A DNA stretch of 64,000 nucleotides. Origin: Acetobacter senegalensis. Its GTDB lineage: Bacteria; Pseudomonadota; Alphaproteobacteria; Acetobacterales; Acetobacteraceae. The translations under genes were made by a program, and so were the position numbers. The notes below the pieces were generated by a model that was given only the letters and a program-made list of their open reading frames with translations, did not search any database and was not told the DNA's origin. Of this stretch, positions 20,972 to 38,937 are shown piece by piece; position 1 is the first letter of the stretch, and the number at the start of each line of letters is the position of its first letter. The stretch spans positions 92,406 through 156,405 of the forward strand of contig NZ_LHZU01000147.1 in assembly GCF_001580995.1 (NCBI RefSeq). The letters are read 5' to 3'.

Positions 20972-20975
20972 GGTA

Positions 20976-22042: not shown

Positions 22043-22431
22043 ATCGGGACCTTCCGCATCTGTTGATTATTATCCGAACGGAGTTGTCTTAACCTGTAAG
22101 GAATTTGTGTTTTTCTGCTTATATTCTGCACGTCCCGGCGATGTTTGCTCCAGTATAAAAAAACGGAGCCGCGAGCGGTGCTGTCGAGCTTCATACGCCT
22201 GATAAAAGGGGAAGTTCCCGCAAGGCAGACAGAAAGCGTATCTGGAACGTCACAGCCTTCCTTTTCCATGCACGGCAAGGGCTGAGGAGTAGGGAATTTA
22301 TGCCGCTGAGAAGGGAATAAAAAACAGGAGGGGGAGAATGCGTCTCTCTTTGCCTGTGTGCGTTCTTCTGCGTGTGAAGGCATTTTTTTGCGTCTTCACG
22401 CTGGACTTTAATATCATAGATGGAGACGAAC
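22043..22431. other. Intergenic region between divergent nuoA and SDR gene
   Basis: About 390 bases that must hold the nuo operon promoter (minus) and the SDR promoter (plus). No pair of boxes is convincing. On the plus strand TAATAT at about 22411 follows a TTGCGT-like box with short spacing. No operator palindrome or riboswitch-like structure was recognised. Confidence 0.4.
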
Positions 22432-23554: not shown

Positions 23555-23575
23555 TTGACACTTATTCTGTAATAC

Positions 23576-23589
23576 ACTAACCAGTTAGT
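23576..23589. promoter_or_regulatory. Putative TetR operator, copy 1 (aldehyde dehydrogenase)
   Basis: ACTAACCAGTTAGT is a perfect inverted repeat (ACTAAC and GTTAGT around CA), 50 bp before the aldehyde dehydrogenase. It contains TAACCAG followed by TTAGT, the motif repeated at 29768, 35513 and 37279. A TTGACA lies 15 bp upstream (23555-23560), so bound protein would block a promoter here. Confidence 0.6.
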
Positions 23590-23639
23590 AACACCGATTT
23601 CCAGCGACAATAACACAAAATCAAAAACAGGGCGGTGCA

Positions 23640-25139
23640 ATGACAACGAGCACACAAAAGCTTTCCTTACCCCAAAACCCACGTTTATTCGGATTATATA
23701 TCAATGGGTTGTGGGTGGATTCTGGCGACCGTAAGATCATGGAACGCCGCAGCCCGGCACACGGTGTTCTGGTAACCAGAACCACAGCGGGCACGGAAGC
23801 GGACGTCAACGAGGCTGTTGCAGTAGCCAGAAAGGCGTTTGAAGACAGGAGATGGTCAGGGCTTTCTGGTCAGCAGCGTGCGGATGTGCTTCTGAAAGCG
23901 GCAACCCTTATTCGGGAGCGGGCCGAGGAACTGGCGCAGCTTGAAACCTTTGAAACAGGCAAGCCTATTACGCAATCTCGTGGAGAAATTCAGGCCAGCG
24001 CCGGTATTTATGAATATGCGGCGGGTGCAGCCAGAATGCTGCATGGGGATAGCTTCAATAACCTCGGCGATAGCATGTTCGGGTTTGTGACCCGTGAGCC
24101 AATCGGTGTTGTGGGGCTGATTACACCGTGGAATTTTCCTTTTTTCATTCTGTCTGAGCGTCTGCCCTTCATTTTGGCTTCTGGCTGCACAGTGGTTGCA
24201 AAGCCGAGTGATCTGACATCTGCCACCACGCTGATTATGGCTGAGATCCTGACGCAGGCGGGCCTGCCAGATGGCGTATTCAATGTTGTCACGGGCCCAG
24301 GAAGTGTGGTGGGAGAGGTGCTGTCTCACCATCCCGACATTGATATGCTGTCCTTCACGGGGTCAACCGCTGTTGGCAAGCGGGTGCTGGCGGCATCTGC
24401 CGGGAACTTCAAAAAGCTGAGTCTGGAACTGGGGGGTAAGAATCCTCATGTGGTCTTTGCTGACGCACGGCTTGAAGACGCTGTTGATGGGGTTATTTTT
24501 GGTTTCTGCTTTAACGCGGGCCAATGCTGCGTGGGCGGAAGCCGGTTGCTTGTTGAAAAATCCATTCAGCCCGAATTTGAGCGCCTTTTGACTGAAAAAT
24601 TGGCCCGTTTGCGTGTGGGAGATCCGTTGGACCCGGACACGCAGATTGGCGCAATTGTAAGTGAAAAGCAGCATGAAACCATTTGTGACTACATTGAACG
24701 AGGAACAAAGCAGGGAGCCCGTTTGCTCTCGCAAGGTAAAATCAATGGCACAGATGGGGGATTGTTTGTTCAACCAACAATCTTTTCGGACGTTACATCT
24801 GACATGGATATTGCAACGGACGAAATTTTTGGGCCGGTTCTGAGTATACTTCCGTTTGAGACAACGGATGATGCCATTACCATAGCAAACAACACTATTT
24901 ACGGCCTTTCCGCCACAATCTGGACGCAGAATCTCTCGCACGCCATGGACGCAGTGCGCGGTATTCGTGCGGGGCGCGTTTGGGTCAACACCACCATTGC
25001 GGGTGGACCGGAACTCCCTGCAGGCGGATTCAAGCAGTCCGGCATTGGGCGTGAGACTGGCATTTACGGGGTAGAAGAATACACCGAAATCAAGGCAACG
25101 CACATTGCTTTTGGCCCTCGTACCCCTTGGGTGTCGTGA
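23640..25139 (+). CDS. NAD(P)-dependent aldehyde dehydrogenase
   Basis: A 499-residue ALDH-superfamily enzyme oxidising an aldehyde to an acid. The catalytic set is complete: N165 in PWNFPF, E263 in SLELGGKN and C297 in FNAGQCCVGG. It also has FTGSTAVGKRV for cofactor binding (about 239-249) and the C-terminal block ELPAGGFKQSGIGRE. It resembles the betaine/lactaldehyde-type groups, but the substrate is open. It overlaps the GMC alcohol dehydrogenase by 1 nt, which suggests alcohol-to-aldehyde-to-acid oxidation as a coupled pair. It is the first gene after operator copy 1. Confidence 0.9.
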   Translation: MTTSTQKLSLPQNPRLFGLYINGLWVDSGDRKIMERRSPAHGVLVTRTTAGTEADVNEAVAVARKAFEDRRWSGLSGQQRADVLLKAATLIRERAEELAQLETFETGKPITQSRGEIQASAGIYEYAAGAARMLHGDSFNNLGDSMFGFVTREPIGVVGLITPWNFPFFILSERLPFILASGCTVVAKPSDLTSATTLIMAEILTQAGLPDGVFNVVTGPGSVVGEVLSHHPDIDMLSFTGSTAVGKRVLAASAGNFKKLSLELGGKNPHVVFADARLEDAVDGVIFGFCFNAGQCCVGGSRLLVEKSIQPEFERLLTEKLARLRVGDPLDPDTQIGAIVSEKQHETICDYIERGTKQGARLLSQGKINGTDGGLFVQPTIFSDVTSDMDIATDEIFGPVLSILPFETTDDAITIANNTIYGLSATIWTQNLSHAMDAVRGIRAGRVWVNTTIAGGPELPAGGFKQSGIGRETGIYGVEEYTEIKATHIAFGPRTPWVS

Positions 25140-26734
25140 TGTCTGGCAGCTATGATTTCATTATCGTAGGGGGCGGCACAGCGGGGTGCGTGCTTGCCAA
25201 CCGCCTGAGTCAGAACCCAAGCGCACGTGTTTTGCTGCTGGAAGCAGGAAAAGCGGATAACCATCCTTTCATTCACATGCCCATAGGGTTTGCAAAAATG
25301 ACAGGAGGACCTCACACATGGGGTTTTCATACCGTGCCGCAGGTGCATGCGCAGAACCGTCGCATACCGTATGTTCAGGCCCGCGTTCTGGGAGGTGGAA
25401 GCTCAATCAACGCTGAGGTTTTTACGCGGGGTGTTGCGCAGGATTATGATCGCTGGGCTGATGAAGAAGGGTGTACGGGCTGGTCTGCCAAGGATGTGCA
25501 ACCTTATTTTCTTCGGTCTGAAGGCAATGAATTGTTTGCCACGAAATACCACGGCACGGATGGTCCGTTAGGTGTTTCCAGCATCACGAGCCCTATGCCC
25601 GTAACGCGTGCGTTTGTTCAGGCCTGTCAGCAATATGGCATTCCCTATAATCCTGATTTTAATGGGGCGTCGCAAGTGGGGGCTGGTGTTTACCAGATCA
25701 CTACCCGGAATGGGCGGCGGTGTTCAACGGCCGTTGGCTATTTGCGGCCGGTCATGAAGCGTCCCAATCTGACAGTTGAAATCAATTGCCTCACGACGCG
25801 TATTCTTTTTTCAAATAATCGGGCGACGGGTGTTGAATACATTCACAAAGGTAAGAAGTGCGTGGCCCACGCAGATGCTGAAGTGATTGTGACAGCGGGC
25901 GCTATTGGATCACCAAAGATCATGATGCTTTCTGGTATTGGACCAGCGGAGCATCTGAAAGATCATGGCATACCCGTTGTTGCAGATCTGCCAGGTGTTG
26001 GCAGTAATCTGAGTGACCATTACGGTATAGATATTGTTTACGAGTTGAAAAAACCGATCAGTCTTGATCGCTACAATAAAGCGCACATGATGATGTGGGC
26101 TGGCCTGCAATATCTTCTGTTCAAGTCAGGGCCTGTGACATCCAATGTAGTGGAAGGCGGGGCGTTCTGGTCTTCCAATGATCGGGAGAGTGTGCCTGAT
26201 CTGCAATTCCATTTTCTGGCAGGTGCTGGTGTGGAAGCAGGCGTGCCGAATATTCCCTCAGGGTCTGGTTGCACGTTGAATTCCTATGTTCTGCGTCCTA
26301 AAAGCCGCGGGACAGTGAGGCTTAAGAGCGCCGACCCTGCAACTGGAGTTCTGGTTGATCCGAATTTTCTTGCAGAACCGGAAGACGTACAAAGTTCTGT
26401 GGAAGGTCTGCATATCAGCCGCGAGATCATGAACCAGCCGAATATGCAAAAGCATGTTAAACGCGCGCACTTTCCAGATGAGAGCGTAAAAACCCGAGAG
26501 GCTCTGGTGCGGTACGCACGTCAATATGGGCGGACGTCATATCATCCCAACGGTACCTGTAAAATGGGTCGTGATGAGATGGCCGTGGTTGACCCGACAT
26601 TGAAAGTGCATGGTGTTGAGGGCTTGAGGATTTGTGATTCCTCGGTGCTCCCTAGTCTTATTGGCTCCAATACAAATGCTGTTACTGTTATGATATCAGA
26701 AAAAGCAAGTGATATCATTTCTTCTTCTTACTAA
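25139..26734 (+). CDS. GMC-family FAD-dependent alcohol dehydrogenase
   Basis: A 531-residue glucose-methanol-choline oxidoreductase of the choline-dehydrogenase/AlkJ type. FAD binding is shown by FIIVGGGTAGCVLANRLS (residues 6-23) and LEAGKADNHP. The signature RVLGGGSSINAEVFTRG lies near 78-94, and TAGAIGSPKIMMLSGIGP near 248-265. The active-site histidine is in SYHPNGTCKMG (about 467), with the second-site asparagine in GSNTNAVTVMI. No signal peptide is present, so it is cytoplasmic or membrane-associated. The ATG at 25139 overlaps the upstream stop (TGATG). Its acceptor is unknown. Confidence 0.9.
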   Translation: MSGSYDFIIVGGGTAGCVLANRLSQNPSARVLLLEAGKADNHPFIHMPIGFAKMTGGPHTWGFHTVPQVHAQNRRIPYVQARVLGGGSSINAEVFTRGVAQDYDRWADEEGCTGWSAKDVQPYFLRSEGNELFATKYHGTDGPLGVSSITSPMPVTRAFVQACQQYGIPYNPDFNGASQVGAGVYQITTRNGRRCSTAVGYLRPVMKRPNLTVEINCLTTRILFSNNRATGVEYIHKGKKCVAHADAEVIVTAGAIGSPKIMMLSGIGPAEHLKDHGIPVVADLPGVGSNLSDHYGIDIVYELKKPISLDRYNKAHMMMWAGLQYLLFKSGPVTSNVVEGGAFWSSNDRESVPDLQFHFLAGAGVEAGVPNIPSGSGCTLNSYVLRPKSRGTVRLKSADPATGVLVDPNFLAEPEDVQSSVEGLHISREIMNQPNMQKHVKRAHFPDESVKTREALVRYARQYGRTSYHPNGTCKMGRDEMAVVDPTLKVHGVEGLRICDSSVLPSLIGSNTNAVTVMISEKASDIISSSY

Positions 26735-26754
26735 AACCATCCTTAAATATTAAA

Positions 26755-26784
26755 GCAGAAATGATACTCACAGGTCATTTCTGC
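26755..26784 (+). repeat. Intercistronic hairpin between GMC and MFS genes
   Basis: A perfect 10-bp stem (GCAGAAATGA and its complement) encloses a 10-nt loop. No T tract follows on the plus strand, so it is not a classical terminator for the upstream genes. It may stabilise mRNA ends or reduce read-through into the transporter gene. It lies 42 bp before the MFS start. Confidence 0.55.
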
Positions 26785-26825
26785 ACTACCATTGGGCAAT
26801 GTACGTCCGCCAAAGGAGTGCTGCT

Positions 26826-28103
26826 ATGGAGTGTTCTGTTGCGGTAAAGGATAAGACGCACGAGAAAGCAGGTATTCTCGATTTTCTTTCTTTCTCGATG
26901 TTTTTCCTTTTCGGAGGCATTACCAGTCTGAATGACGTAGTAATGCCAAAACTCAAAGAAGTGTTTGATCTGAATTACACTCAGATGACAACAGTTCAGT
27001 TCTGCTTTTTTGCAAGTTATTTTCTTATTTCTATTCCAGCTTCTCATATGATCAAGAAAAATGGCTATATGAGAACACTTGTTATTGGCCTTAATCTGAT
27101 AGCGTTAGGGTGCCTGTGTTTTATTCCAGCAACGTGGTCTGCCCGTTTTCTGGTTTTTCTGCTGGCCCTGTTTGTGGTGGCTGCCGGTATTACGATTATT
27201 CAGGTAACAGCCAATCCACTTGTTATCTCTTTAAGTAATAAACAGAATGTATCGTCACGCCTGACATTTGCCCACGCCTGTAATTCTCTTGGTACAGTGG
27301 TTGCTCCCTATCTGGGTGCCATGATTATTTTGCGTCACCATTCCGAAGAAAGTCTGCTTGGAAAAATAGCAGCGTATTTTTCTGATCAGGGAATGTCTGA
27401 AGGGGCAATAGATATTAGTGTCTGTTATCTGATTGTTTCTGTCATTATTTTTTGTTGGTCAGTGATGACCTGGATAAATCGTAGCAAACTCAAGGGCGAA
27501 TATTTTCATGAAGGAAGTGTGCTGAAGGCCGTTGAGTTGTTTAAGGACAGGCATTTCAGTTTTGGCGTTGCCGCGATGTTTTTCTATATCGGCGCAGAAG
27601 TTACGATTGGAAGCCTTCTGGTTAATTATCTTATTTTGCCAGATACCTTGCATTTGACTGCGGAAGAAGCCGGGAAACACCTTGCATTTTACTGGGGTGG
27701 GCTTTTATGTGGGCGTCTGCTGGGCATTGTTTTGCTGCGCGCTATAGCGCCTTCTGTTCTTCTGACTGTGTATGGAACCTGCGCCTTTCTGCTGGTTATT
27801 CTTTCCATTGTTTCCACAGGAGGAATGGCTGGTTGGGCAATGTTAGCCGTTGGGTTGTGTAACTCAGTCATGTTTCCGCTTATTTTTTCACTGACTTCGA
27901 TGGACCTTGGGCATCGTGCCTCTGAAGGGTCTGGCCTGATTTGCATGGCGATTGTGGGTGGGGCGTTTGTTCCGGTTATAACAGGACGGTTTGCGGATAT
28001 TACCAACCTGAATATAGCCTTCATTATACCGGCTCTTTGCTATCTTGTTGTTATTTTATTTGGGTTTTACTCACGTTCTTCCCGCCATAAAGTGTTTTCC
28101 TGA
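26826..28103 (+). CDS. FucP/GluP-type sugar:proton symporter (MFS)
   Basis: A 425-residue major-facilitator protein with about 12 hydrophobic segments. The N-terminal part FFLFGGITSLNDVVMPKLKEVF, the first-half NGYMRTLVIGL loop and VTANPLVISLSNKQNVSSRLTFAHACNSLGTVVAPYLG match the fucose/glucose/galactose permease group, whose members import sugars with protons. AAGGAG stands 7 nt before the ATG at 26826; an upstream in-frame start at 26799 is less likely. It is followed by a carbohydrate porin gene, so the pair would give outer- and inner-membrane uptake of the pathway substrate. Confidence 0.85.
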   Translation: MECSVAVKDKTHEKAGILDFLSFSMFFLFGGITSLNDVVMPKLKEVFDLNYTQMTTVQFCFFASYFLISIPASHMIKKNGYMRTLVIGLNLIALGCLCFIPATWSARFLVFLLALFVVAAGITIIQVTANPLVISLSNKQNVSSRLTFAHACNSLGTVVAPYLGAMIILRHHSEESLLGKIAAYFSDQGMSEGAIDISVCYLIVSVIIFCWSVMTWINRSKLKGEYFHEGSVLKAVELFKDRHFSFGVAAMFFYIGAEVTIGSLLVNYLILPDTLHLTAEEAGKHLAFYWGGLLCGRLLGIVLLRAIAPSVLLTVYGTCAFLLVILSIVSTGGMAGWAMLAVGLCNSVMFPLIFSLTSMDLGHRASEGSGLICMAIVGGAFVPVITGRFADITNLNIAFIIPALCYLVVILFGFYSRSSRHKVFS

Positions 28104-28140
28104 TCATAAACGGCAGTATAAAAATAAAAAGGAAGCTGTC

Positions 28141-29679
28141 ATGTGGGAAATGTCTCGTACTGTAGGGGCTGTTGCGTGTCTTGCATTGATACCGGCGGCC
28201 AGTGAAGCGCGTGCGCGCCGGCCTGAACTGTCAGAATGTTTTGGTGTTGCGATGACACCGTGGGACCCGGATGTGCTCTGTGTGAATAATCCTAATCTGG
28301 TGGAAGAAGAGTTGTCAAACAATCAGGATAATTTCTTCTTTTACGATGATCATCATAACATCAGCAGGCGGCCAAGCCGTGTGTCCCGGGTGTGGCGTTC
28401 GGCACCTCGCCCGTTATCGTCCAACTGGTTACATCAGGATGTGATGACGGGAGATTGGGGCGGACTGCGCACGCGGTTGGCACAGCGCGGCATCCTGTTT
28501 CAGGGGCATTATGTGCAGGATACAGCCGGAAACCCTGCCGGTGGGAAAGCGCAGGCCGTGCGTTATGCGCATGAATTTGCCGGAGGACTGGATATCGATT
28601 TCAACAAATGGCTTGGTTACGATATCGGGATTCTTCATTTTCTGGTTACACAACGTTCAGGGCTGGGGCTGCATATGGTGATGCCTGCGCTCAGTTCCGT
28701 GCAGGAAATTTATGGAACAGGGCAGACCGTGCGTTTGACCCGGCTTTCTCTTGAACACAAATTTACAAATTATGTGAACACGGAACTGGGATGGGTTAAT
28801 ACGGAAAATGATTTTGCCCAGTCTACAACGCACTGGGGTATGTCTATTTACTGTCAGTTTCAAAGCAATGCCATTTGTGGCATGCCACAGTCGCTCGCAT
28901 TCAATTCTGGCTACGGCTATTATCCCAGTGCGCACCCGGGTGCTTATGTAAAGCTATACCCTACCGGCAAAGATGATTTCCTTGCCTCGTTTGGTGTCTA
29001 TAACGTGGATAATACAATTGCCAACAGTCATAATGGCTGGAAAATGTGGCTTCATAATACTGTGGGTACGTATTTTCCTGTGCAACTGGGCTGGAAGCAT
29101 GGGGGCACGGATATAAAAGGAGCGTATCCGGGTAATATCAGAATAGGTGGGTATTGGGAAACAACCCGCGTTAAAACGGTTACCCAGAAAATCACGATGT
29201 TTGCACCTGCGGGTACAGTTTATCAAAACTGGCCCAATGACAGCATAAAAGGGCGGTATGGCGCGTGGTTTGAAGGAGATCAGATGATCGAGCGCGATCG
29301 GAACAACCCTAAACGGGGTGTGGTTGCGTTTGGCAGTTTTGTCTGGGGGGACACCCAGACTTCTCCGTTTCCATATTTTGCCACCTGGGGCTTTATTCGC
29401 AAAGGCACGTTTGCCAGCAGGCCAGATGATACGATCAGTATTGGCGGAAAGCTGATGGTGGTTAATTCAAAAATTGCCCGCTATGCCCGATATCTTAAAT
29501 CAACCGGGCAAGATGTTTCCACGCCGACCTTTGAGCATAGCTTTGAGGTCAATTATGGCTGGCGACCTGCACCGTGGCTGCTGGTGCGGCCCGGGTTGCA
29601 GTATGTCTGGAGACCCGGCGGAACGCGGCGTTACCCCAATGCGACGGTACTCGATTTTGAGACCGCTATCATCTTCTAG
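28141..29679 (+). CDS. OprB-family carbohydrate-selective porin
   Basis: A 512-residue outer-membrane protein. A signal peptide ends in ASEARA near residue 23. After an acidic linker the OprB barrel starts with the diagnostic DVMTGDWGGLRTRLAQRGILFQGHYVQD (about residues 100-127). It ends FETAIIF, with aromatic residues suited to barrel assembly. OprB porins let sugars and polyols across the outer membrane and are numerous in acetic acid bacteria. AAGGAAG precedes the ATG at 28141, and the MFS gene ends 37 nt upstream, so both are probably one unit. Confidence 0.88.
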   Translation: MWEMSRTVGAVACLALIPAASEARARRPELSECFGVAMTPWDPDVLCVNNPNLVEEELSNNQDNFFFYDDHHNISRRPSRVSRVWRSAPRPLSSNWLHQDVMTGDWGGLRTRLAQRGILFQGHYVQDTAGNPAGGKAQAVRYAHEFAGGLDIDFNKWLGYDIGILHFLVTQRSGLGLHMVMPALSSVQEIYGTGQTVRLTRLSLEHKFTNYVNTELGWVNTENDFAQSTTHWGMSIYCQFQSNAICGMPQSLAFNSGYGYYPSAHPGAYVKLYPTGKDDFLASFGVYNVDNTIANSHNGWKMWLHNTVGTYFPVQLGWKHGGTDIKGAYPGNIRIGGYWETTRVKTVTQKITMFAPAGTVYQNWPNDSIKGRYGAWFEGDQMIERDRNNPKRGVVAFGSFVWGDTQTSPFPYFATWGFIRKGTFASRPDDTISIGGKLMVVNSKIARYARYLKSTGQDVSTPTFEHSFEVNYGWRPAPWLLVRPGLQYVWRPGGTRRYPNATVLDFETAIIF

Positions 29680-29767
29680 GTAGATAGACACACTACACGA
29701 AATGTTCAGCGTTTTTTGAGCAGGGTTCTGTTCTCTTTCCTTGATCTTCCAACGCAATACAATGTAT

Positions 29768-29781
29768 GTAACCAGATAGTT
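29768..29781. promoter_or_regulatory. Putative TetR operator, copy 2 (acyl-CoA dehydrogenase operon)
   Basis: GTAACCAGATAGTT matches copy 3 over TAACCAGATAGTT. A TACAAT box (29758-29763) lies just before it and the operon start is 20 bp after it, so it occupies the expected start-of-transcription zone. Confidence 0.6.
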
Positions 29782-29801
29782 CATTAAGTAGGATTTTAAA
29801 G

Positions 29802-30944
29802 ATGTTTCTTAACGAAGTGCAGGAACAGGTTCTGGAAACAACCCGGTCTTTTGTAGATGAGGTGATCCGCCCGGCAGCAGAAGCGCTGGATCGGGAAGAA
29901 CGCTTTCCTACCGAAATTTATGATCAGATGGCCGAGTTAGGCCTGTTTGGTATTGGGGTGCCGGAAGAGCTGGGTGGGCCGGGATTTGATACACTGACGT
30001 ATGCTGTGGTCATGGAAGAACTCTCCCGTGGTTACGCCAGCATCGCAGACCAATGTGGATTGGTGGAATTGATTTCCACCCTGCTGGTAAGGCATGGCAC
30101 GGAACATCAGCGCAAGATGCTGCCAGAAGTTCTCTCCATGCGGCGCAAGGTGGCTTACTGCATTACCGAGCCGGAGGCCGGGACGGATGTCTCTGGTATT
30201 CGCACCACGGCTGAGCGAGATGGCGATGGCTGGGTGCTGAACGGGGGCAAGATCTGGATTCATAATGCTCCCGTGGCAGATACGGGTTTTGTGCTGGCAC
30301 GAACCAACAAGGAAGCCGGTAATCGTGGCATGTCCATCTTTATTGTGGATCTGCATGCCAAGGGGGTAGAGCGCGGCCCGAAGGAACATAAGATGGGGCA
30401 GCGCGCCAGCCAGGTCGGCGGGCTTGATTTTCAGGATGTAAGATTGGGGCCAGACGCGCTTCTGGGTGAAGAAGGACGCGGCTTTCATATGATGATGAGC
30501 GTTCTGGATAAAGGGCGGGTGGGCATTGCCTCTCTGGCCGTGGGCATTGCGCAGGCGGGATTGGAAGCCGCAGTGGATTACGCAGGCACCCGGAAGCAGT
30601 TTGGAAAACATATTTCAGAATTTCAGGGCGTCCAGTGGCTCCTTGCTGACATGGCAAAGGATATTGAGGCCGCACGGCTTCTTGTTTACTCCGCTGCGAC
30701 CAAAATTGACCGAGGGCTGGATGCAACACGGTCCTGCTCCATGGCCAAATGTTTTGCAGGGGACATGGCAGTAGCCCGCACAGCAGACGCGGTACAGGTT
30801 TTTGGTGGTTCAGGCTATATCCGTGGTTTTGAGGTTGAGCGCCTTTATCGCGATGCCAAAATTACCCAGATTTACGAAGGAACAAACCAGATTCAGCGGA
30901 TGATTATTGCGCGTGAATTGCTGCGCAAAGGCGCACGTTCATGA
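29802..30944 (+). CDS. Acyl-CoA dehydrogenase
   Basis: A 380-residue FAD enzyme that desaturates an acyl-CoA at C2-C3 and passes electrons to ETF. It shows YCITEPEAGTDVSG (about 125-138, substrate/FAD site), GGKIWIHNAPVAD, the arginine-rich RKQFGKHISEFQG near 265-277, QVFGGSGYIRGFEVERLYRDAKI near 330-352 and the catalytic Glu359 in IYEGTNQIQ. The length is typical. It is the first gene of an operon with an SDR, a DUF993 protein, an isomerase and its own ETF genes. It overlaps the SDR by 4 nt. Confidence 0.92.
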   Translation: MFLNEVQEQVLETTRSFVDEVIRPAAEALDREERFPTEIYDQMAELGLFGIGVPEELGGPGFDTLTYAVVMEELSRGYASIADQCGLVELISTLLVRHGTEHQRKMLPEVLSMRRKVAYCITEPEAGTDVSGIRTTAERDGDGWVLNGGKIWIHNAPVADTGFVLARTNKEAGNRGMSIFIVDLHAKGVERGPKEHKMGQRASQVGGLDFQDVRLGPDALLGEEGRGFHMMMSVLDKGRVGIASLAVGIAQAGLEAAVDYAGTRKQFGKHISEFQGVQWLLADMAKDIEAARLLVYSAATKIDRGLDATRSCSMAKCFAGDMAVARTADAVQVFGGSGYIRGFEVERLYRDAKITQIYEGTNQIQRMIIARELLRKGARS

Positions 30945-31708
30945 TGCAGGTAGCTCTGGTTACTGGGTCTTCTCGCGGTATCGGGCTGGCTACTGCCGAG
31001 GCTTTGGCTCAGGCCGGTTTTGCCATTGCGCTCAACGGCCCTGCAGACGATGCAGAACTTCACGCGGCAGTTAAAAAAGTTTCGGACTATGGAGTGCCTG
31101 TGATGGCCGCTCCATTTGATGTAACGGATAGTGCTGCTTATGAACCGCAACTCTCCCGCATTGAAGACACATTGGGCCCGTTAACAACGTTGGTGAATAA
31201 TGCCGGGGTAGGGGTTCTGCAACGCGGGGATCTGCTGGATGTGACGGAAGCCAGTTGGGACCGGTGTGTAAACGTGAATGCCAAGGCTGTTTTCTTTCTC
31301 TCGCAGGCTTTTGCGCGGCGTTTGCTTTCACGCAAACGGGATGATGAGCAGTTTTACGCCATTGTGAATGTGACATCTTCAAACGCCGTTGCTGTTGCTG
31401 TCCAGCGTTCGGAATATTGTGCCTCAAAAGCTGCTGCTGCCATGATTTCACGTACCCTTGCTGTCAGGCTCGGGGCTGAAAACATAGCTGTTTATGATGT
31501 GCAGCCTGGGCTGATTGCCACAGAAATGACAGCGCCTGTTATTGAAAGTTACAGAAAGCGCGCTGAAGACGGTTTGACCTTGTTTCCCCGTGTTGGCACT
31601 CCCGCAGAAATTGGTGCCATCATTACAAGTCTTGCCGCTGGAAAACTTCCATATGTGACAGGACAGGCAATTTCGGCAGATGCCGGAATGCTGGTTCCGC
31701 GTTTTTGA
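30941..31708 (+). CDS. SDR-family oxidoreductase
   Basis: A 255-residue short-chain dehydrogenase of the 3-oxoacyl-reductase-like type. It shows TGSSRGIGLATAEA at residues 8-21, NNAGVGV near 86, a serine in NVTSSNA near 142, YCASKAA with catalytic Tyr and Lys near 158-164, and VTGQAISADAGMLVPRF at the end. It could oxidise a hydroxyacyl-CoA or a sugar-derived hydroxyl in the same pathway as the upstream acyl-CoA dehydrogenase. The ATG at 30941 overlaps the upstream stop. Confidence 0.88.
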   Translation: MMQVALVTGSSRGIGLATAEALAQAGFAIALNGPADDAELHAAVKKVSDYGVPVMAAPFDVTDSAAYEPQLSRIEDTLGPLTTLVNNAGVGVLQRGDLLDVTEASWDRCVNVNAKAVFFLSQAFARRLLSRKRDDEQFYAIVNVTSSNAVAVAVQRSEYCASKAAAAMISRTLAVRLGAENIAVYDVQPGLIATEMTAPVIESYRKRAEDGLTLFPRVGTPAEIGAIITSLAAGKLPYVTGQAISADAGMLVPRF

Positions 31709-31716
31709 GAGTGGCC

Positions 31717-32865
31717 ATGAAAATAGCACTTCCCGACCTGAATGGTCAGAAGACTGAGTATTCTCTGACCGGTGTTCCGTTGCCTTCGGCAGTTCTTTCT
31801 GGCCAGTCGGCACGTATTGTCTATTCAGCGGCTCACGTGGTTGCTGATCCTTTCACGAATAATGACCCATCTGGTTCTCCTGCGATTGATTGGGAAAAAA
31901 CCCTTGAGTTTCGCCGCTATCTTGCCGGTTTAGGAATTGGTATTGCGGAATCCATGGATACAGCCCAGCGCGGTATGGGGCTGGACTGGCCCAAAGCGCT
32001 GGAACTGATTACCCATACTCGCAAGGAACTGCCGGACGCATTGGTTGCTAACGGGTGTGGCACGGATCATCTGCTGCCTCAGGATGCGCGATCGGTAGAT
32101 GATGTTATTCGCGCTTATCTGGAGCAGGTTGAGGCTATTCAGGCCGTGGGCGGCCGGTTGATCCTGATGGCAAGCCGCGCTTTGGTAAAAGTGGCCCGAA
32201 GCGCAGCGGACTACCTGCGTGTGTATTCAGACGTTCTCTCCGCCTGTGACCAGCCGGTTATTCTGCACTGGTTGGGAGAGATGTTCGACCCGGCACTTGC
32301 CGGATATTGGGGGAGTGCCTCGTTTGAGGACGCTGTAGAGACCGTTCTTGAGATTATTGAAGTTAATAAAAGCAAAGTTGACGGCATAAAAATATCTCTT
32401 CTGGATAAACAGAAGGAAATCGTTCTGCGGCGGCGTCTGCCTTCTGGTGTGAAAATGTACACTGGGGATGACTTCAATTATCCGGAACTGATTGAAGGTG
32501 ATGACCAAGGATTCAGCCATGCTCTTCTTGGTATTTTTGATCCTCTGGCACCGGCTGCCGCGTATGCTGTATCAAAACTGGGAGAAGGGGATACTGCTGC
32601 TTTCCGGTCCACGCTGGACCCGACGGTGCCCCTTGCCCGCACCATTTTTCGGGCTCCCACACAGTATTATAAAACAGGCGTCGTGTTCCTTGCGTGGCTG
32701 AATGGTTTTCAGGATCACTTCATTATGGTGAATGGCGCGCAGGCTCTCCGGCCTTTGCCATATTTTACGGAAATTTTCAGGCAGGCGGACCAGTGCGGTC
32801 TTCTCCGTGATCCGGAAAAGGCGGTACACCGTATGACGTCTCTTCTGGCTGTTTACGGAGCCTGA
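31717..32865 (+). CDS. DUF993 family TIM-barrel protein (dihydrodipicolinate-synthase-like)
   Basis: A 382-residue protein recognised as DUF993 (inference from recalled family features). It shows YSAAHVVADPF near residue 33, GLDWPKALELI, LVANGCGTD, and GGRLILMASRAL near 145. Lys/Asp-rich KVDGIKISLLDKQKEI near 220 resembles the Schiff-base lysine strand of NAL/DHDPS aldolases, and VKMYTGDDFNYPELI follows. Its reaction is not established; an aldolase or related lyase role is likely for the fold. The ATG at 31717 is taken; TTG 31705 or GTG 31711 are possible. It is 1 nt before the isomerase gene. Confidence 0.72.
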   Translation: MKIALPDLNGQKTEYSLTGVPLPSAVLSGQSARIVYSAAHVVADPFTNNDPSGSPAIDWEKTLEFRRYLAGLGIGIAESMDTAQRGMGLDWPKALELITHTRKELPDALVANGCGTDHLLPQDARSVDDVIRAYLEQVEAIQAVGGRLILMASRALVKVARSAADYLRVYSDVLSACDQPVILHWLGEMFDPALAGYWGSASFEDAVETVLEIIEVNKSKVDGIKISLLDKQKEIVLRRRLPSGVKMYTGDDFNYPELIEGDDQGFSHALLGIFDPLAPAAAYAVSKLGEGDTAAFRSTLDPTVPLARTIFRAPTQYYKTGVVFLAWLNGFQDHFIMVNGAQALRPLPYFTEIFRQADQCGLLRDPEKAVHRMTSLLAVYGA

Positions 32866-32866
32866 A

Positions 32867-33724
32867 ATGCGGGATTTCACGCATGATCTCTCTGCATTGG
32901 CGCTGAACACCGCCACACTTGGCCATAATGTGCCGGGGGCAGGTGCCGGGTGGTCTCCTGAGCGGATACTGGATGCATGCGCCCGGCGGGGCATTGGGGG
33001 GATTGTTTTCTGGCGGCGGGAGGTTACAGGCCGAGGCGCTGAAATTGCGCGCCGGGCACGGGAGGCAGGCGTGAGTGTCGCCGGTTTATGCCGGTCTCCT
33101 TTTCTGGTCGGACCGATGGCCCCGGTAGGAAGACAGGCTGTTATTGACGATTTTCGGTCTGCTCTGGATCTTGCTGCCGAGTTGGGAGCGCCGATTTTGA
33201 CTATTGTTACCGGCGGCGTGCAGCCTGAGACGAAAGGCGTGGAAGAAAGTCTTAAGCTAGTGGCAGGGTATCTGGAAGAAGTGGTTCCATATGCTGATGC
33301 GTGCGGTGTCAAATTGGCTCTGGAACCATTGAACCCGGCTTATGGGGGGGATCGCTCCTGCCTGACAACCACCAGAGACGCGCTGGATATCTGTGATCTG
33401 GTCAATGCGCCAGGCCTTGGTGTGGCCATAGATGTTTACCACGTCTGGTGGGATACGGATTTACGCTATCAGCTTCAACGCGCTGGGCATCGGATTCTGG
33501 GCTATCATTTGTGTGACTGGCTGGCCCAGACCACTGACATTCTTCTTGATCGCGGGATGATGGGGGACGGCGTGGCTGATCTGAAACCTATTCGGGCCGC
33601 TGTGGAGGCCGCGGGCTATAGCGGTTTCTGTGAAGTTGAAATTTTCTCTGTAAATAACTGGTGGAAGCGGAATCCGGACGATGTTCTGGACATCATGATT
33701 GATCGCTTCCGGACTGTTTGCTGA
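32867..33724 (+). CDS. Sugar phosphate isomerase/epimerase-like TIM-barrel protein
   Basis: A 285-residue member of the AP-endonuclease-2/xylose-isomerase-like barrel family. Candidate metal ligands are in place: E153 in LALEPLNP, D189 and H192 in [11 protein letters not shown]214 and D217 in YHLCDW, and E256/E258 in CEVEIFS. Family members isomerise, epimerise or dehydrate sugars and inositol derivatives. It follows the DUF993 gene by 1 nt; DUF993 and this family appear to form a functional pair (inference from this spacing). The substrate is unknown. Confidence 0.82.
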
Positions 33725-33738
33725 AACGCGAGGATGTT

Positions 33739-34500
33739 ATGAAAATACTTGTCCCCGTAAAAAGGGTTGTTGACTATAATGTCAAGGTTCGGGTGAAGAC
33801 GGACGGAAGCGGTGTTGATCTGTCCGGTGTGAAAATGTCCATGAACCCGTTTGATGAAATTGCTCTGGAAGAAGCGGTTCGCCTTAAAGAAAAAGGTCTT
33901 GCAACCGAGGTTGTGGCTGTTTCCGCGGGCGTAGGTCAGGTGCGTGATACATTGCGCACAGCGCTGGCGATGGGGGCGGATCGGGCGATACTGGTTGAGA
34001 CATCAACGGACGTGAATGATGATCTTGAACCCCTGGCTGTTGCAAAAATTCTTGCCAAACTGGTGGAAACAGAAACGCCGGATCTGGTGATCATGGGCAA
34101 GCAGGCCATTGATAATGATATGAACGCAACCGGCCAGATGCTTGCAGCCTTGCTGGGGTGGGGGCAGGCAACCTTTGCATCTCAGGTGGAAATTGCAGAT
34201 GGAAGTGTAACTGTTACGCGTGAAGTAGATGGCGGCTTGCAGACCCTGAGAGTAGGGCTGCCTGCGGTTGTAACGGCCGATCTGCGCTTGAATGAGCCAC
34301 GGTATGTTTCTTTGCCCAATATCATGAAAGCCAAGAAAAAACCTTTGGAAGAAAAAAAGATATCAGACATGGGTGTGGATATTACACCCCGTCTGCAGGT
34401 GGTGCGTACGGTTGAGCCGGCCCAGCGGAGCGCCGGTGTGAGAGTTAACTCCGTTGATGAGCTTATCGAAAAACTGAAAAATCAGGCAGGAGTGATCTGA
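33739..34500 (+). CDS. etfB: Electron transfer flavoprotein beta subunit
   Basis: A 253-residue ETF beta subunit that binds AMP and pairs with the alpha subunit to accept electrons from acyl-CoA dehydrogenases. It shows [19 protein letters not shown], the recognition-loop region [19 protein letters not shown] near 36-54, [10 protein letters not shown], and the ETF-beta signature around [43 protein letters not shown] (split over 153-205). GAGG stands 5 nt before the ATG at 33739. Its stop overlaps the etfA start. Confidence 0.94.
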
Positions 34501-35426
34501 TGACTGTTTTATTGCTGGGTGAAAGTGTGAATGGCCAGCTTGCAACAGATACAGTTGCCAGAGCGCTTGATGCCCTCAAGCCGCTGGGAGAAGTGCATCT
34601 TCTGTTGACTGGAGACGTGACAGAAAATGCAGCCAGCACGGCTGCGCATCTGGATGGTGTGAGCAAGGTTCTGGTTGCGCGCGACACCGTGCTTGAGCAT
34701 GGGCTTGCGGAACCTGTGGCCGCCTTGGTTGTAAAGCTGGCTGGGCAGTATAGTCATATTGCAGCAGGCGCTACGGCATTTTCCAAAAATATCCTGCCGC
34801 GAGTTGCTGCATTGTTGGACGTGATGGTTCTGACGGATGTGACAGCCGTGCTGGATGCGGACACATTTGAGCGCCCGGTATTTGCGGGGAATGCCATTCA
34901 GACAGTTAAATCAACTGATAAAATAAAAGTTTTTACAATACGAACGTCAGTCTTTTCCGCCGTGGGCCAAAATGGTGCCGCCGAGATCGAGACGGCGGAT
35001 GTGGCAGATCTACCCTCTCTCTCCCTGTGGGTGGAAGATCAGTCTGTTGTTTCTGAACGGCCAGAATTGACGTCTGCCCGTGTGGTCGTGTCTGGTGGCC
35101 GGGGCCTGGGGTCCAGAGAAAATTTTGAGTGCGTTATCAACCTTGCGGACAAGATGGGCGGTGCCGTTGGCGCAAGCCGGGCTGCGGTGGATCTGGGATA
35201 TGCACCGAATGACTGGCAGGTAGGGCAGACCGGGAAAGTTGTTGCGCCGGACCTCTATATAGCCGCGGGCATTTCCGGCGCTATTCAGCATCTTGCGGGA
35301 ATGAAAGATTCCAAGGTGATTGTTGCGATCAACAAGGACGAAGAGGCACCAATCTTCAGAATTGCGGATTACGCCATTGTAGGAGATCTTTTTACGGTTC
35401 TCCCAGAACTGACTGAAAAGCTGTAA
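34500..35426 (+). CDS. etfA: Electron transfer flavoprotein alpha subunit
   Basis: A 308-residue ETF alpha subunit binding FAD. The C-terminal FAD domain has [14 protein letters not shown] near 200, [47 protein letters not shown] over about 220-268, and [14 protein letters not shown] near 275. It overlaps etfB and is the last gene of the acyl-CoA dehydrogenase operon. This looks like a pathway-dedicated ETF: it is cotranscribed with one dehydrogenase and lacks a neighbouring ETF-ubiquinone oxidoreductase, which must be supplied elsewhere. Confidence 0.94.
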
Positions 35427-35483
35427 GCGTCCATCACAAAGACGGGAAGCGGGCTTTAACGGCCAGTCCGAGCCAGATTGTCC

Positions 35484-35512
35484 TTGCGGCCCGAAATACG
35501 CCAAAATATAAA
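35484..35512 (+). promoter_or_regulatory. Promoter of the CoA-transferase gene
   Basis: TTGCGG (35484-35489) and TATAAA (35507-35512) are separated by exactly 17 bp. Operator copy 3 begins directly after the -10 box, a standard repressor position. Confidence 0.6.
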
Positions 35513-35526
35513 TAACCAGATAGTTA
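35513..35526. promoter_or_regulatory. Putative TetR operator, copy 3 (CoA-transferase)
   Basis: TAACCAGATAGTTA has perfect outer half sites (TAAC and GTTA) with a 6-bp centre. It starts at the base after the -10 box and lies 24 bp before the gene. Confidence 0.65.
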
Positions 35527-35550
35527 AAATAGCTGGAAAGCTGAAAACAG

Positions 35551-37140
35551 ATGTCCAAGATCAAAAGCGCCGCAGAAGTTGCTGAGTTTATCAAGGACGG
35601 AGCCGTTATCGCCGTCAATTCTTCCAGTGGTCTATGCTGTCCCGATGAGATTCTGGCCGCAATTGGTGCCAGATTTCGGGCGAAGGGTGCCCCCAGAGGC
35701 ATAACCACCATTCATCCCATTGCTGCGGGAGATATGTTCGGCACAAAAGGGGTGGATCATGTTGCGCAGCCTGGGCTTCTTGCCACCATTATTGGCGGCT
35801 CGTTCCCTTCGGGGCCATCGTCAATGGAGCCGCCCCTTATTCGGCAGATGATCCGGGACAATCAGGTGGCAGCCTATAACGTGCCCAGTGGCGTTATTTT
35901 TGACATGTTGCGGGAAGGGGCTGCTCTTCGGCCCGGCGTGTTGACACAAGTTGGCATGGATACATTTGTGGACCCGCAGAAGGAAGGCTGTGCCATGAAT
36001 GATGTGGCGCGGCAGAAGCCTATAGTGGAGCGGACCACGTTTAAGGGCCAGGAATGGCTTTATTTCAATGCTCTGCGGCCAGATGTTGCCATTATTCGCG
36101 CCAGCACGGCAGATGAGCGTGGCAATCTGACATTTGAGAACGAAGGGGCCTATATTGGCGCGATGGAGATTGCGCTGGCAGGCCGGAATAGCGGGGGCAT
36201 TGTTATTGCGCAGGTGAAGCGTATTGCGCAGTCTGGCACATTGAGGCCGCATGATGTGCGGGTGCCGGGTATTCTGGTGGACTATGTGGTCGAAGCGCCG
36301 GAACAGTTGCAGACAACTGCGACCCCTTATGATCCTGCCATTTCAGGGGAGGTGTTCCGGCCGCTGGATAGTTTCAGCCTGCCGGAGTTTGACGCCGCCA
36401 AAGTGATGGCGCGCCGCGTAGCACAGGAACTGAAGCCCGGATGGGCTGTTAATATCGGGTTTGGTATTTCAGCCAACGTGCCCAGAATTCTGCTTGAAGA
36501 AGGGCGGCATGGTGAGGTGACGTGGGTGATTGAGCAGGGGGCTGTTGGTGGTATTCCTCTGCTTGATTTCAAATTCGGCTGTTCTTCCAATGCGGAATGT
36601 TTTGTGGCTTCTCCTCAGTTGTTTACCTATTTTCAGGCTGGCGGGTTTGATGTCTCCTTGATGTCTTTCCTTCAGATTGATCGTATGGGGTCAGTCAATG
36701 TCTCCAATCTGGCGGCCCGCCCCCATGTTACGGCTGGTGCGGGCGGCTTTGTGGACATTACTTCTCACGCAAAGCGCATCATCTTTTCCGGGTATTTCAA
36801 TGCAGGGGCCAAGCTGGGCGTTGCTGACGGAAAGGTGCGGATTGATCGGGAAGGCAAGGTGCCGAAGATAGTTGAAAAACTGGATCAGACATCCTTTTCC
36901 GGACCAAGGGCCATCGCGGAAGGAAAGGAAATTCTTTACGTTACGGAGCGGTGCGTCATGAAACTGACGCCTCAGGGGCTGATGGTGACAGAAATTGCGC
37001 CCGGTATAGATCTGAAAACCCAGGTGCTTGATCAGGCTGAAGTGCCGCTGCTTGTTTCTTCCACCCTGAAGGAGATGGATGCTGCCCTCTTTCAGCCTTC
37101 AATGACGGATGTGCCTGCTCAGAATAAAGAAGCTGCCTGA
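35551..37140 (+). CDS. Family I acyl-CoA:acetate/propionate CoA-transferase (fused alpha-beta)
   Basis: A 529-residue protein containing both halves of a 3-oxoacid/propionate-type CoA-transferase. The N-terminal half has DGAVIAVNSSSGLCCPDEIL near 15-34 and the C-terminal half has NIGFGISANVPRILLEEG near 302-319. The catalytic glutamate sits in WVIEQGAVGGIP (E330 region). The enzyme moves CoA from a donor such as acetyl-CoA to an acid, matching an upstream aldehyde dehydrogenase that makes the acid and an acyl-CoA dehydrogenase that uses the thioester. It has its own promoter and operator copy 3. Confidence 0.88.
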   Translation: MSKIKSAAEVAEFIKDGAVIAVNSSSGLCCPDEILAAIGARFRAKGAPRGITTIHPIAAGDMFGTKGVDHVAQPGLLATIIGGSFPSGPSSMEPPLIRQMIRDNQVAAYNVPSGVIFDMLREGAALRPGVLTQVGMDTFVDPQKEGCAMNDVARQKPIVERTTFKGQEWLYFNALRPDVAIIRASTADERGNLTFENEGAYIGAMEIALAGRNSGGIVIAQVKRIAQSGTLRPHDVRVPGILVDYVVEAPEQLQTTATPYDPAISGEVFRPLDSFSLPEFDAAKVMARRVAQELKPGWAVNIGFGISANVPRILLEEGRHGEVTWVIEQGAVGGIPLLDFKFGCSSNAECFVASPQLFTYFQAGGFDVSLMSFLQIDRMGSVNVSNLAARPHVTAGAGGFVDITSHAKRIIFSGYFNAGAKLGVADGKVRIDREGKVPKIVEKLDQTSFSGPRAIAEGKEILYVTERCVMKLTPQGLMVTEIAPGIDLKTQVLDQAEVPLLVSSTLKEMDAALFQPSMTDVPAQNKEAA

Positions 37141-37175
37141 TAGGACGCGCGGAATAACAGCAACTGGGATTACGG

Positions 37176-37206
37176 CATGGGGCAGGCAGAGAGTGGCTGC
37201 CCCGTG
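37176..37206 (+). terminator. Probable terminator of the CoA-transferase gene
   Basis: A 10-bp stem (CATGGGGCAG with CTGCCCCGTG, one G-U pair) encloses 11 nt and is 35 bp after the stop. The following run (CCTGTTTC) has few T residues, so termination may be weak. Confidence 0.45.
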
Positions 37207-37278
37207 ACCTGTTTCTGGGAGTGTAGAAACGCGCGGTTAGGTTGGATCTGCCTCAAGCGTTAGAATTTGGTTCATATG

Positions 37279-37292
37279 TAAATATCTTGTTA
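37279..37292. promoter_or_regulatory. Putative TetR operator, copy 4 (autoregulation)
   Basis: The minus strand reads TAACAAGATATTTA, matching copy 3 at 12 of 14 positions in inverted orientation. It overlaps the -35 box of the tetR promoter. A second 12-bp perfect palindrome, AATAACGTTATT, lies at 37302-37313 between the -35 and -10 boxes. Confidence 0.55.
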
Positions 37293-37315
37293 CTTATGGG
37301 AAATAACGTTATTAT
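37287..37315 (+). promoter_or_regulatory. Promoter of the tetR gene
   Basis: TTGTTA (37287-37292) and TATTAT (37310-37315) are separated by 17 bp, 67 bp before the tetR ATG. Operator copy 4 covers the -35 box. Confidence 0.6.
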
Positions 37316-37381
37316 AACACGTTGCTCCAGGATGTTTATCTGAGTGATGGTCCGTTAGTACGCATTTAATGAGGGAATGAG

Positions 37382-38068
37382 ATGACACAGGCAGAAAGCA
37401 GGGAAGGCACAGATAGTCTGCCTGGCACGAGCCCGGAGGCAACGCGTATTCCCCGTAAGCGGGACGCGGAAGCAACTCAGAAACGTATTCTGTCTTCAGC
37501 CAAGCATGAATTTGCCATGAGTGGGCTGGGCGGCGCGCGGGTTGATGTGATCGCTGAAAAAGCGGAAGCCAATAAACGGATGATCTACCACTACTTTGGG
37601 AGCAAGGAAGCTCTTTTTACCAAGGTTCTGGAAGAAGCTTATGGTGATCTGTATGAAGCCGAGCGTAAATTGAAGCTTGATCACCTTGAACCCAAAGTAG
37701 CCTTGGAGCGATTTGTCAGGTTTACGTGGAATTATTACCTTGAAAACCCTGATTTTATTACACTTGTAAATAGTGAGAACCTGCACAAGGGCGTGCACCT
37801 TGAAAGTTCTGATGTGCTCAAAAGTGTGAGCAAAAACCGGCTCCATATGCTGGAAAATTTACTGGTCCGTGGGCAGAAGAGTGGTGTTTTCCGGTCCGGC
37901 ATTGATGCCATGCAGCTTCATATTTCCATCGCAGCGCTTGGTTATTATTATCTGACAAACAGATATACAGGTTCCATTGTGTTCCGGTGTGATCTTATGG
38001 CTCCGGAAATGTTGAAAAAACGAATTGAATTCAATGTGGACAGTATTATTCGGATTGTAAGTGCTTGA
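37382..38068 (+). CDS. TetR/AcrR-family regulator of the catabolic cluster
   Basis: A 228-residue regulator. After a disordered N-terminus of about 35 residues the helix-turn-helix domain covers RILSSAKHEFAMSGLGGARVDVIAEKAEANKRMIYHYFGSKEALF (split over about 38-83), with the usual YHYFGSKE end. The C-terminal ligand domain contains FVRFTWNYYLENPDFITLVNSEN. Its own promoter carries a motif shared with three other promoters of the cluster, so it most likely represses them until a pathway intermediate binds (inference). A strong hairpin terminator follows. Confidence 0.88.
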   Translation: MTQAESREGTDSLPGTSPEATRIPRKRDAEATQKRILSSAKHEFAMSGLGGARVDVIAEKAEANKRMIYHYFGSKEALFTKVLEEAYGDLYEAERKLKLDHLEPKVALERFVRFTWNYYLENPDFITLVNSENLHKGVHLESSDVLKSVSKNRLHMLENLLVRGQKSGVFRSGIDAMQLHISIAALGYYYLTNRYTGSIVFRCDLMAPEMLKKRIEFNVDSIIRIVSA

Positions 38069-38121
38069 ATCTGTTTATTCATATAGTTGAAACAATTTTG
38101 TAATTCTTCAGGATTCTTTTT

Positions 38122-38162
38122 TATACCTAAAATAGCGCAGTAGAGTGCGTTTTTTAGGTATA
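38122..38162. terminator. Bidirectional-type intrinsic terminator after tetR
   Basis: TATACCTAAAA (38122-38132) pairs perfectly with TTTTAGGTATA (38152-38162). Inside is a second stem AGCGCA/TGCGTT with a 6-nt loop. The inner stem is preceded by AAAA and followed by six T residues, the form of an intrinsic terminator working on both strands. It closes the catabolic island. Confidence 0.75.
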
Positions 38163-38355: not shown

Positions 38356-38919
38356 ATGCGGATAAACCGTATGCTGCGGATGTCCCGGCGGGATGTTCTG
38401 CTGGCGGGCATGGGGGCTGCTGTCGCATCGGTAACGGCACAGGCTGCAGAGCCGCAGCCGGCGGTCTCTTCAGACGTGACGGAAGCAGCGCAGTTTCTTA
38501 CGCTTTCCCTGCGGTTGACTGATCGGGAAACACTTTCCCCGGCCATTGGCAGCGCGTTATACGCCCGCATTGTGCAGGCAGTGCCTGAAAGAAAGGCGCA
38601 GATCAGTCAGCTCTACACTCTCATGCGGCAAAGCCATTTTGAGAGTGCTCAGGAACTGGCGATAGCTGCCGAGAAAGCGGACCCGGCTTTCAAGGACGTC
38701 ATCCACGATATTATGACAGGCTGGTATCGGGGGGTAGCAGACCAGAAAGTGGTTGTGTATCGCTCTGCCCTGATGTTCGACATCACAAAAGATGCTGTCT
38801 ATCCAAAGACTTACGCAACAGGTGGTCCGTTCTACTGGACATCAAAGCCACCTGAAGTGCCTCTCCCGACAGGTGCGCCCGGACTTTCTCCGTCCAAATT
38901 TGTTGTGGAACCCACCTGA
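38356..38919 (+). CDS. FAD-dependent sorbitol-type dehydrogenase, small subunit (Tat-exported)
   Basis: A 187-residue protein with a Tat signal (SRRDVLLAGMGAAVA, about residues 8-22, cleaved near TAQAAE). Its body resembles the FAD-SLDH small-subunit family, especially the C-terminal IMTGWYRGVADQKVVVYRSALMF and GGPFYWTSKPPEVP. The small subunit is exported with the large subunit and helps it fold. It is followed by the GMC large subunit and cytochrome c, the SLC order of sorbitol and related dehydrogenases of acetic acid bacteria. The ATG at 38356 is the best of several starts; the ribosome site is weak. Confidence 0.8.
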   Translation: MRINRMLRMSRRDVLLAGMGAAVASVTAQAAEPQPAVSSDVTEAAQFLTLSLRLTDRETLSPAIGSALYARIVQAVPERKAQISQLYTLMRQSHFESAQELAIAAEKADPAFKDVIHDIMTGWYRGVADQKVVVYRSALMFDITKDAVYPKTYATGGPFYWTSKPPEVPLPTGAPGLSPSKFVVEPT

Positions 38920-38937
38920 TAAGCGGAATCTGAAAAT

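Follow-up and report, generated by a model that had tools for sequence, protein, structure and literature searches.

Gluconobacter oxydans produces 2-keto-L-gulonate by a pair of enzymes, L-sorbose dehydrogenase (SDH) and L-sorbosone dehydrogenase (SNDH), which the papers describing them treat as a production pathway and whose available text mentions neither coenzyme A (CoA) genes nor a TetR regulator (PMC7092628, PMC10602560). Breakdown of a sugar acid as a CoA thioester is described, in the part of the source available, for the deoxyribonate pathway of Klebsiella michiganensis, whose cluster groups a CoA-transferase and a glycerate kinase with a CoA-synthetase and a thiolase (PMC6365646). 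Here, we analysed a 64,000-nucleotide stretch of Acetobacter senegalensis (contig NZ_LHZU01000147.1; hereafter the window), belonging to a 3.93-Mb genome in 148 contigs, which carries an island that shares features with both systems. The island genes lie on the + strand throughout, from 23640 to 38068, and encode an aldehyde dehydrogenase (ALDH), a GMC dehydrogenase, a symporter and a porin, then an acyl-CoA dehydrogenase (ACAD; gene acad), a short-chain dehydrogenase/reductase (SDR), a DUF993 protein, an isomerase-like protein and the electron transfer flavoprotein (ETF) subunits EtfB and EtfA, followed by a CoA-transferase (CoAT) and a TetR-family regulator. Unlike the Klebsiella cluster, the island has ACAD-ETF, DUF993 and isomerase genes, and no CoA-synthetase or thiolase gene is found between 23640 and 38068. 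We lean, by a modest measure, towards reading it as a TetR-repressed gene set whose enzymes would convert a ketose resembling L-sorbose, by oxidation, into a 2-keto sugar acid and break this acid down as a CoA thioester.

The link to L-sorbose comes from Gluconobacter, where the island ALDH is 95.9-98.8% identical to the L-sorbosone dehydrogenase of G. oxydans WSH-004 (PDB 7w5l) at seven of seven loci, the value for Gluconobacter sp. P1C6_b (L117) being 98.8%. The primers that cloned SDH from WSH-004 are printed in the part of PMC7092628 available to us. Allowing up to two mismatches, the forward primer was found in 7 of the 26 genomes of P1C6_b's genus, and each of the seven hits marks where the island GMC gene begins, adjoining the ALDH gene, with 23-25 of 25 bases matched; the stop primer matched at 23-24 of 24 bases in six of these loci and gave no good match in L219. 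Because the ALDH is nearly identical and the SDH primer falls at the next gene, the SDH/SNDH pair heads the island in Gluconobacter, and for this form there is good support for entry by oxidation of a ketose and its osone. After the pair, the Gluconobacter loci continue with CoAT, glycerate kinase, ACAD, SDR, DUF993, isomerase, EtfB and EtfA; TetR is seen in six of the seven, L219 stopping at a contig edge, and in L218 GMC and ACAD are each split in two pieces, possibly by frameshifts.

In the window, the ALDH (23640..25139, + strand, 499 aa) was assigned to the L-sorbosone dehydrogenase type from its sequence and its best PDB match, which is 7w5l (661 bits, 59.9% identity; next 3u4j, 523 bits). 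It retains the catalytic residues of that enzyme, as named in the available part of PMC10602560, together with its Cys295-Cys296 pair; among the substrate-tunnel residues Phe164 and Val297 are kept and Met167 is replaced by Phe, and Trp468 is replaced by Ile. The GMC dehydrogenase (25139..26734, +, 531 aa from an ATG overlapping the ALDH stop) is L-sorbose dehydrogenase-like by position. Judged by sequence, the window carries a diverged subtype of the SDH/SNDH pair, as do A. tropicalis and locus L080, whose ALDHs are 91% and 83% identical to the window's, and the same ketose and osone entry is probable here. L-sorbosone was the best substrate of the WSH-004 enzyme, with NADP+ or NAD+ as cofactor, according to the accessible text (PMC10602560). 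A preliminary description of this DNA had recognised no known pathway in the island; since the ALDH-GMC pair is of the L-sorbosone/L-sorbose dehydrogenase type, the pathway is not wholly unrecognisable. In the literature searched we found no description of CoA transfer, ACAD-ETF, DUF993, isomerase and, often, glycerate kinase acting after the ketose pair, and no joint account of sorbose dehydrogenase with ETF and a CoA-transferase in Gluconobacter.

The same description had combined sugar-type uptake with CoA-thioester chemistry, and the family matches bear this out. Behind the pair come an MFS symporter of the FucP/GluP type (26799..28103, +; NCBIfam gluP above cut-off) and an OprB-type carbohydrate porin (28141..29679, +; PF04966). 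The six-gene operon follows in the order ACAD-SDR-DUF993-isomerase-EtfB-EtfA. ACAD (29802..30944, +), called by family match and catalytic residue, has three ACAD domains and the catalytic Glu; the SDR (30941..31708, +) matches the NCBIfam model '3-ketoacyl-ACP reductase' PRK12745 above cut-off, and a xylose-isomerase-like TIM barrel (32867..33724, +; AP_endonuc_2) lies between DUF993 (31717..32865, +) and EtfB (33739..34500, +) and EtfA (34500..35426, +), the last two called by family match. The CoA-transferase (35551..37140, +) is YdiF-like, by family match and catalytic residues. Support for the CoA part comes from these family and catalytic-residue matches and from ETF and ETF-quinone oxidoreductase (ETF-QO) genes adjoining in relatives, as well as from the glycerate kinase that many clusters contain. 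The idea that ETF or ETF-QO occurs in Acetobacter only alongside the island was rejected, each being matched in 48 of 49 genomes. The window's genome gives no ETF-alpha match besides the island EtfA, and contig C35 opens with an ETF-QO match; an assembly gap may have swallowed a second etf operon.

DUF993, 92% identical to its counterpart in A. tropicalis LMG 19825, was assigned by Pfam and by structure comparison, which gives a TIM barrel of the dihydrodipicolinate synthase (DHDPS) type with a lysine on strand 6; this residue, Lys225, is invariant, and we infer a Schiff-base lyase acting through it. The likeness to DapA rests on structure comparison, as comparison by sequence with the genome's own DapA fell short of significance (probability 0.2%, E 0.28), even if the alignment did pair the two lysines. 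The protein gave no match to PF00701, Pfam returning DUF993 alone and not DHDPS at E <= 0.001, and it differs from the DapA fold family further in its length of 382 aa and in His184 on strand 5. A crystal structure exists for the DUF993 family (4DNH); in the literature searched, no paper was found for DUF993 by name or for 7VPF, and six SMa14xx gene names gave only unrelated literature. In Sinorhizobium meliloti, the DUF993 paralogue SMc04132 and SMc04133 and SMc04135 have lower values in the phbC phaR than in the phbC mutant, in the portion of PMC12542648 available.

A 14-bp palindrome resembling TAACYANNTRGTTA precedes each gene group: copy 1 (TAACCAGTTAGTAA, 23578-23591, +) stands before ALDH-GMC, copy 2 (TAACCAGATAGTTC, 29769-29782, +) before acad, copy 3 (TAACCAGATAGTTA, 35513-35526, +) before the CoAT gene, abutting its -10 box, and copy 4 (TAACAAGATATTTA, 37279-37292, -) before tetR, covering its -35 box. 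The four groups had previously been said to share a motif, and gene calls agree that its copies precede ALDH-GMC, the six-gene ACAD/ETF operon, CoAT and tetR; all four sites were recovered, within 0-2 bases of the earlier positions, and they recur in A. tropicalis. The promoter geometry reported earlier was also found: copy 3 begins at the base immediately following a promoter-like TTGCGG-17-TATAAA (35484..35512, +), and copy 4 spans the -35-like TTGTTA (37287-37292) of the tetR promoter-like sequence TTGTTA-17-TATTAT (37287..37315, +; TATTAT at 37310-37315). Blocking of RNA polymerase would be the natural reading of repression from such sites. Across relatives, the best -35/-10 pair at the operator reached at least 9 of 12 in 15 of 41 acad upstreams (shuffle mean 0.92, maximum 4).

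Counts in the window and its genome are circular because the motif was derived from the sites themselves, so we set motif-only window statistics aside as evidence. Within the window, 7 matches with at most three mismatches compare with 1.97 expected, 7 being reached in 1 of 100 shuffles; genome-wide, the sole exact copy and the sole one-mismatch copy both lie inside the island, which also holds 4 of the 19 places with at most two mismatches. The argument for the regulon therefore rests on other species, where the test is a better one. We took the best match in about 210 bp upstream over 12 specified positions, at related loci from many alphaproteobacteria whose proteins were at least 70% (ACAD), 60% (CoAT) or 50% (TetR) identical to the window's, after dropping the duplicates L109 (=L070), L112 (=L077/L078), L116 (=L084) and L119 (=L080/L081), and compared it with mononucleotide shuffles, which keep base composition only. 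A match of at least 11/12 was found before acad in 38 of 48 loci, before CoAT in 33 of 39 and before tetR in 7 of 37, against shuffle means of 0.09, 0.05 and 0.07; at 10/12 or better the counts are 45/48, 35/39 and 21/37, the best site falling lower in L086, L091 and L177 for acad and in L143, L171, L176 and L185 for CoAT. These loci are akin and not independent, including two Mesorhizobium metagenome-assembled genomes (MAGs), two Boseongicola MAGs and close Acetobacter pairs.

In anchored alignments, none of the 41 acad upstreams departs from the TAAC and GT columns, and 34 of 35 CoAT upstreams retain them. All seven Gluconobacter loci have sites of at least 11/12 before both CoAT and acad; A. 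tropicalis keeps four of four sites, copy 1 being changed on one arm there (L070) and identical in A. pomorum (L119). A looser first scan over 1.01 Mb of related loci gave 119 sites of at least 12/14, against 11 and 16 in two shuffles, and none of the 119 lay within mapped core genes. Among exact TAACYANNTRGTTA sites in the 11 Acetobacter genomes that bear DUF993, 12 of 14 are in the island (reversed-pattern control, 7 sites), while the other 38 Acetobacter genomes have 9 (control, 15). The preliminary description would have counted loss of the sites in gene-keeping relatives against itself; they are retained before acad and CoAT and weakly conserved before tetR.

The regulator (37382..38068, +) has TetR_N (PF00440) and TetR_C_29 (PF17938) domains, both above cut-off, and resembles TetR-type repressors of catabolic operons in these domains and in having promoter palindromes, one of them before its own gene; the literature searched gave no account of the island's operator or regulon. 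DUF993 is present in 11 of 49 Acetobacter genomes, and a close TetR orthologue occurs in exactly those 11 (E <= 1.4e-70, 53-100% identity), whereas the best match among the 38 others has E 2.4e-36 and 38% identity, in a genome 68% complete. Both genes share a contig in 10 of the 11; in G253 they are on separate contigs, both near contig ends. Among 77 TetR homologues from related loci, a histidine occupies the recognition-helix (KRMIYHYF) position of His70 in 27 of 31 with a best site of at least 11/12 and in 5 of 46 others. This association is support and not proof, because the sequences share ancestry, and the residue is a possible specificity determinant for the palindrome. The palindrome is likely the binding site of the TetR-family repressor, on the comparative evidence, and we are highly confident that the island forms a single conserved, TetR-linked unit. 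The earlier placing of the island under a single TetR regulator thus stands insofar as a close orthologue tracks the gene set and operator-like palindromes are present, with binding by the protein as a prediction.

In the scheme that we propose, a ketose would likely enter through the porin and the symporter, as their families suggest, and GMC and then ALDH would convert it via an osone to a 2-keto-aldonate, as published for the Gluconobacter pair and presumed for the window's 60%-identical subtype. CoAT would load the acid with CoA, for which a glyceryl-CoA product is a possible donor. The resulting acyl-CoA would be oxidised by ACAD together with EtfBA and an ETF-QO, feeding the quinone pool, and the carbon chain would be rearranged and cleaved by the SDR, the isomerase and DUF993 as a putative Schiff-base lyase, giving C3 units, glycerate among them. 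An inducer, probably a pathway intermediate, would free TetR from operators that abut or overlap core promoters. The CoA-thioester steps and the DUF993 reaction, in the order given, are tentative predictions. SDH was active in intact Escherichia coli and not in broken cells, even with 2,6-dichlorophenolindophenol (DCIP) or phenazine methosulfate (PMS), according to the portion available (PMC7092628). A specific electron carrier such as ETF might be what the broken cells lack. That CoAT recycles CoA by moving it from glyceryl-CoA onto newly arriving acid while the island ETF/ETF-QO serves as the SDH acceptor is a single joint reading, and a rather doubtful one.

Some observations weigh against the proposal, and the alternatives draw in part on them. 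The window's ALDH may have another substrate, given its 60% identity and the Met167 to Phe change, and the island may accordingly serve another sugar or polyol, with a diverged ALDH-GMC subtype and the regulator and CoA part alone in common with Gluconobacter. The Trp468 to Ile replacement and the symporter and porin that accompany the subtype in A. tropicalis and L080 would fit this, but the catalytic residues and the cysteine pair are kept, L-sorbosone dehydrogenase is still the top PDB match and the downstream operon is the same as in Gluconobacter; we regard it as a minority possibility to be taken seriously. As candidate substrates, 2-C-methylerythritol, apiose, anhydroglucitol, autoinducer-2 and deoxyribose were dropped for want of evidence. 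We know of no precedent for CoA transfer onto a 2-keto acid; the window's island has no enoyl-CoA hydratase, thiolase or glycerate kinase, and in relatives the deposited name glycerate kinase corresponds to a match below the NCBIfam cut-off. The CoA part could be an ordinary short-chain acid or fatty-acid β-oxidation operon merely lying beside a ketose-oxidising pair, in keeping with an ACAD whose nearest PDB structures are of the butyryl-CoA dehydrogenase and CarC types and with the YdiF-like CoA-transferase. The lack of a thiolase argues the other way, as do DUF993 and a sugar-isomerase-like protein in the same operon, an operator common to both parts, and the sugar transporters and glycerate kinase that recur with the cluster, so that we find this improbable.

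On the regulatory side, the -35/-10 score reached 9 of 12 in 3 of 35 CoAT upstreams, not above shuffles (mean 0.6, maximum 4), so that, by these counts, promoters abutting the operator find support at acad but not across the CoAT upstreams taken together. The tetR sites are the weakest and fade beyond close relatives; no TetR was seen in the 20-kb stretches of the same-family loci L089, L090, L092 and L093 despite an 11/12 acad site; and, allowing one mismatch, the window's genome shows no enrichment of the palindrome (8 places, 3 of them within the island, against 13 for the control). These points leave some room for the palindrome serving another regulator or belonging to the promoters, TetR governing something else. 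We give this little credence, as both palindrome arms persist in 41 acad and 35 CoAT upstreams, TetR accompanies the island in all 11 of the Acetobacter genomes that have it and occurs at comparable identity in 0 of 38 others, the recognition-helix residue and the site co-occur, and the Erwinia and Pantoea loci have a full palindrome before their own tetR.

Two neighbouring sets of genes were considered as island members and rejected. No palindrome was found before the SDR gene at 22420-23196, and in A. tropicalis the 3' part of its counterpart is some 2.9 kb away from the ALDH gene, on the upstream side. The operon at 38362-41875, of the FAD-sorbitol-dehydrogenase type, has no site and adjoins tetR only in A. 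tropicalis among the loci compared. It lies directly after tetR, as in A. tropicalis, and its three genes encode a PF12318 small subunit, a GMC large subunit and a cytochrome c; sorbitol can be turned into L-sorbose by such enzymes (PMC10602560, in the part available). On the minus strand before the island, 17423-21788 holds respiratory NADH dehydrogenase genes, the 30- and 49-kDa subunits being fused in a single open reading frame (19196-20986).

Beyond Acetobacter and Gluconobacter, neighbourhoods drawn from tblastn and annotated records place the ACAD-type cluster in Paracoccus, Sinorhizobium, Rhizobium, Mesorhizobium, Labrys, a plasmid labelled Roseateles and others; calling genes as longest open reading frames was dropped because many high-GC loci were mislabelled. 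Fuller clusters add a sugar ABC transporter, a Zn-alcohol dehydrogenase, aldo/keto reductases, enoyl-CoA hydratase, glycerate kinase (present in many clusters) and sometimes ETF-QO. Reduced versions on Caballeronia and Paraburkholderia plasmids comprise MFS, enoyl-CoA hydratase, CoAT, TetR, SDR, DUF993 and isomerase, with no ACAD in the stretch shown, and those of Paracoccus pantotrophus, Erwinia, Nitratireductor and Bradyrhizobium comprise Gfo/Idh, DUF993 and isomerase, neither CoAT nor ACAD appearing in the stretches shown; in P. pantotrophus and Erwinia, glycerate kinase stands beside them. DUF993 also occurs in an unexpected setting, beside a type I polyketide synthase, on a Streptomyces plasmid (L200:8998-19176). 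In a LacI-linked variant (L198:5819-13463, L202:542-5928), a Dabb protein, GMC enzymes and glycerate kinase accompany DUF993, and no isomerase of the island type is annotated beside it.

The analysis suggests that the vitamin C precursor enzymes of Gluconobacter naturally open a route that is predicted to proceed via coenzyme A. If true, the dehydrogenases exploited in 2-keto-L-gulonate production would gain a natural function and a regulator, genes that would consume this acid and hence limit its yield would be named, and DUF993 would have a first function.

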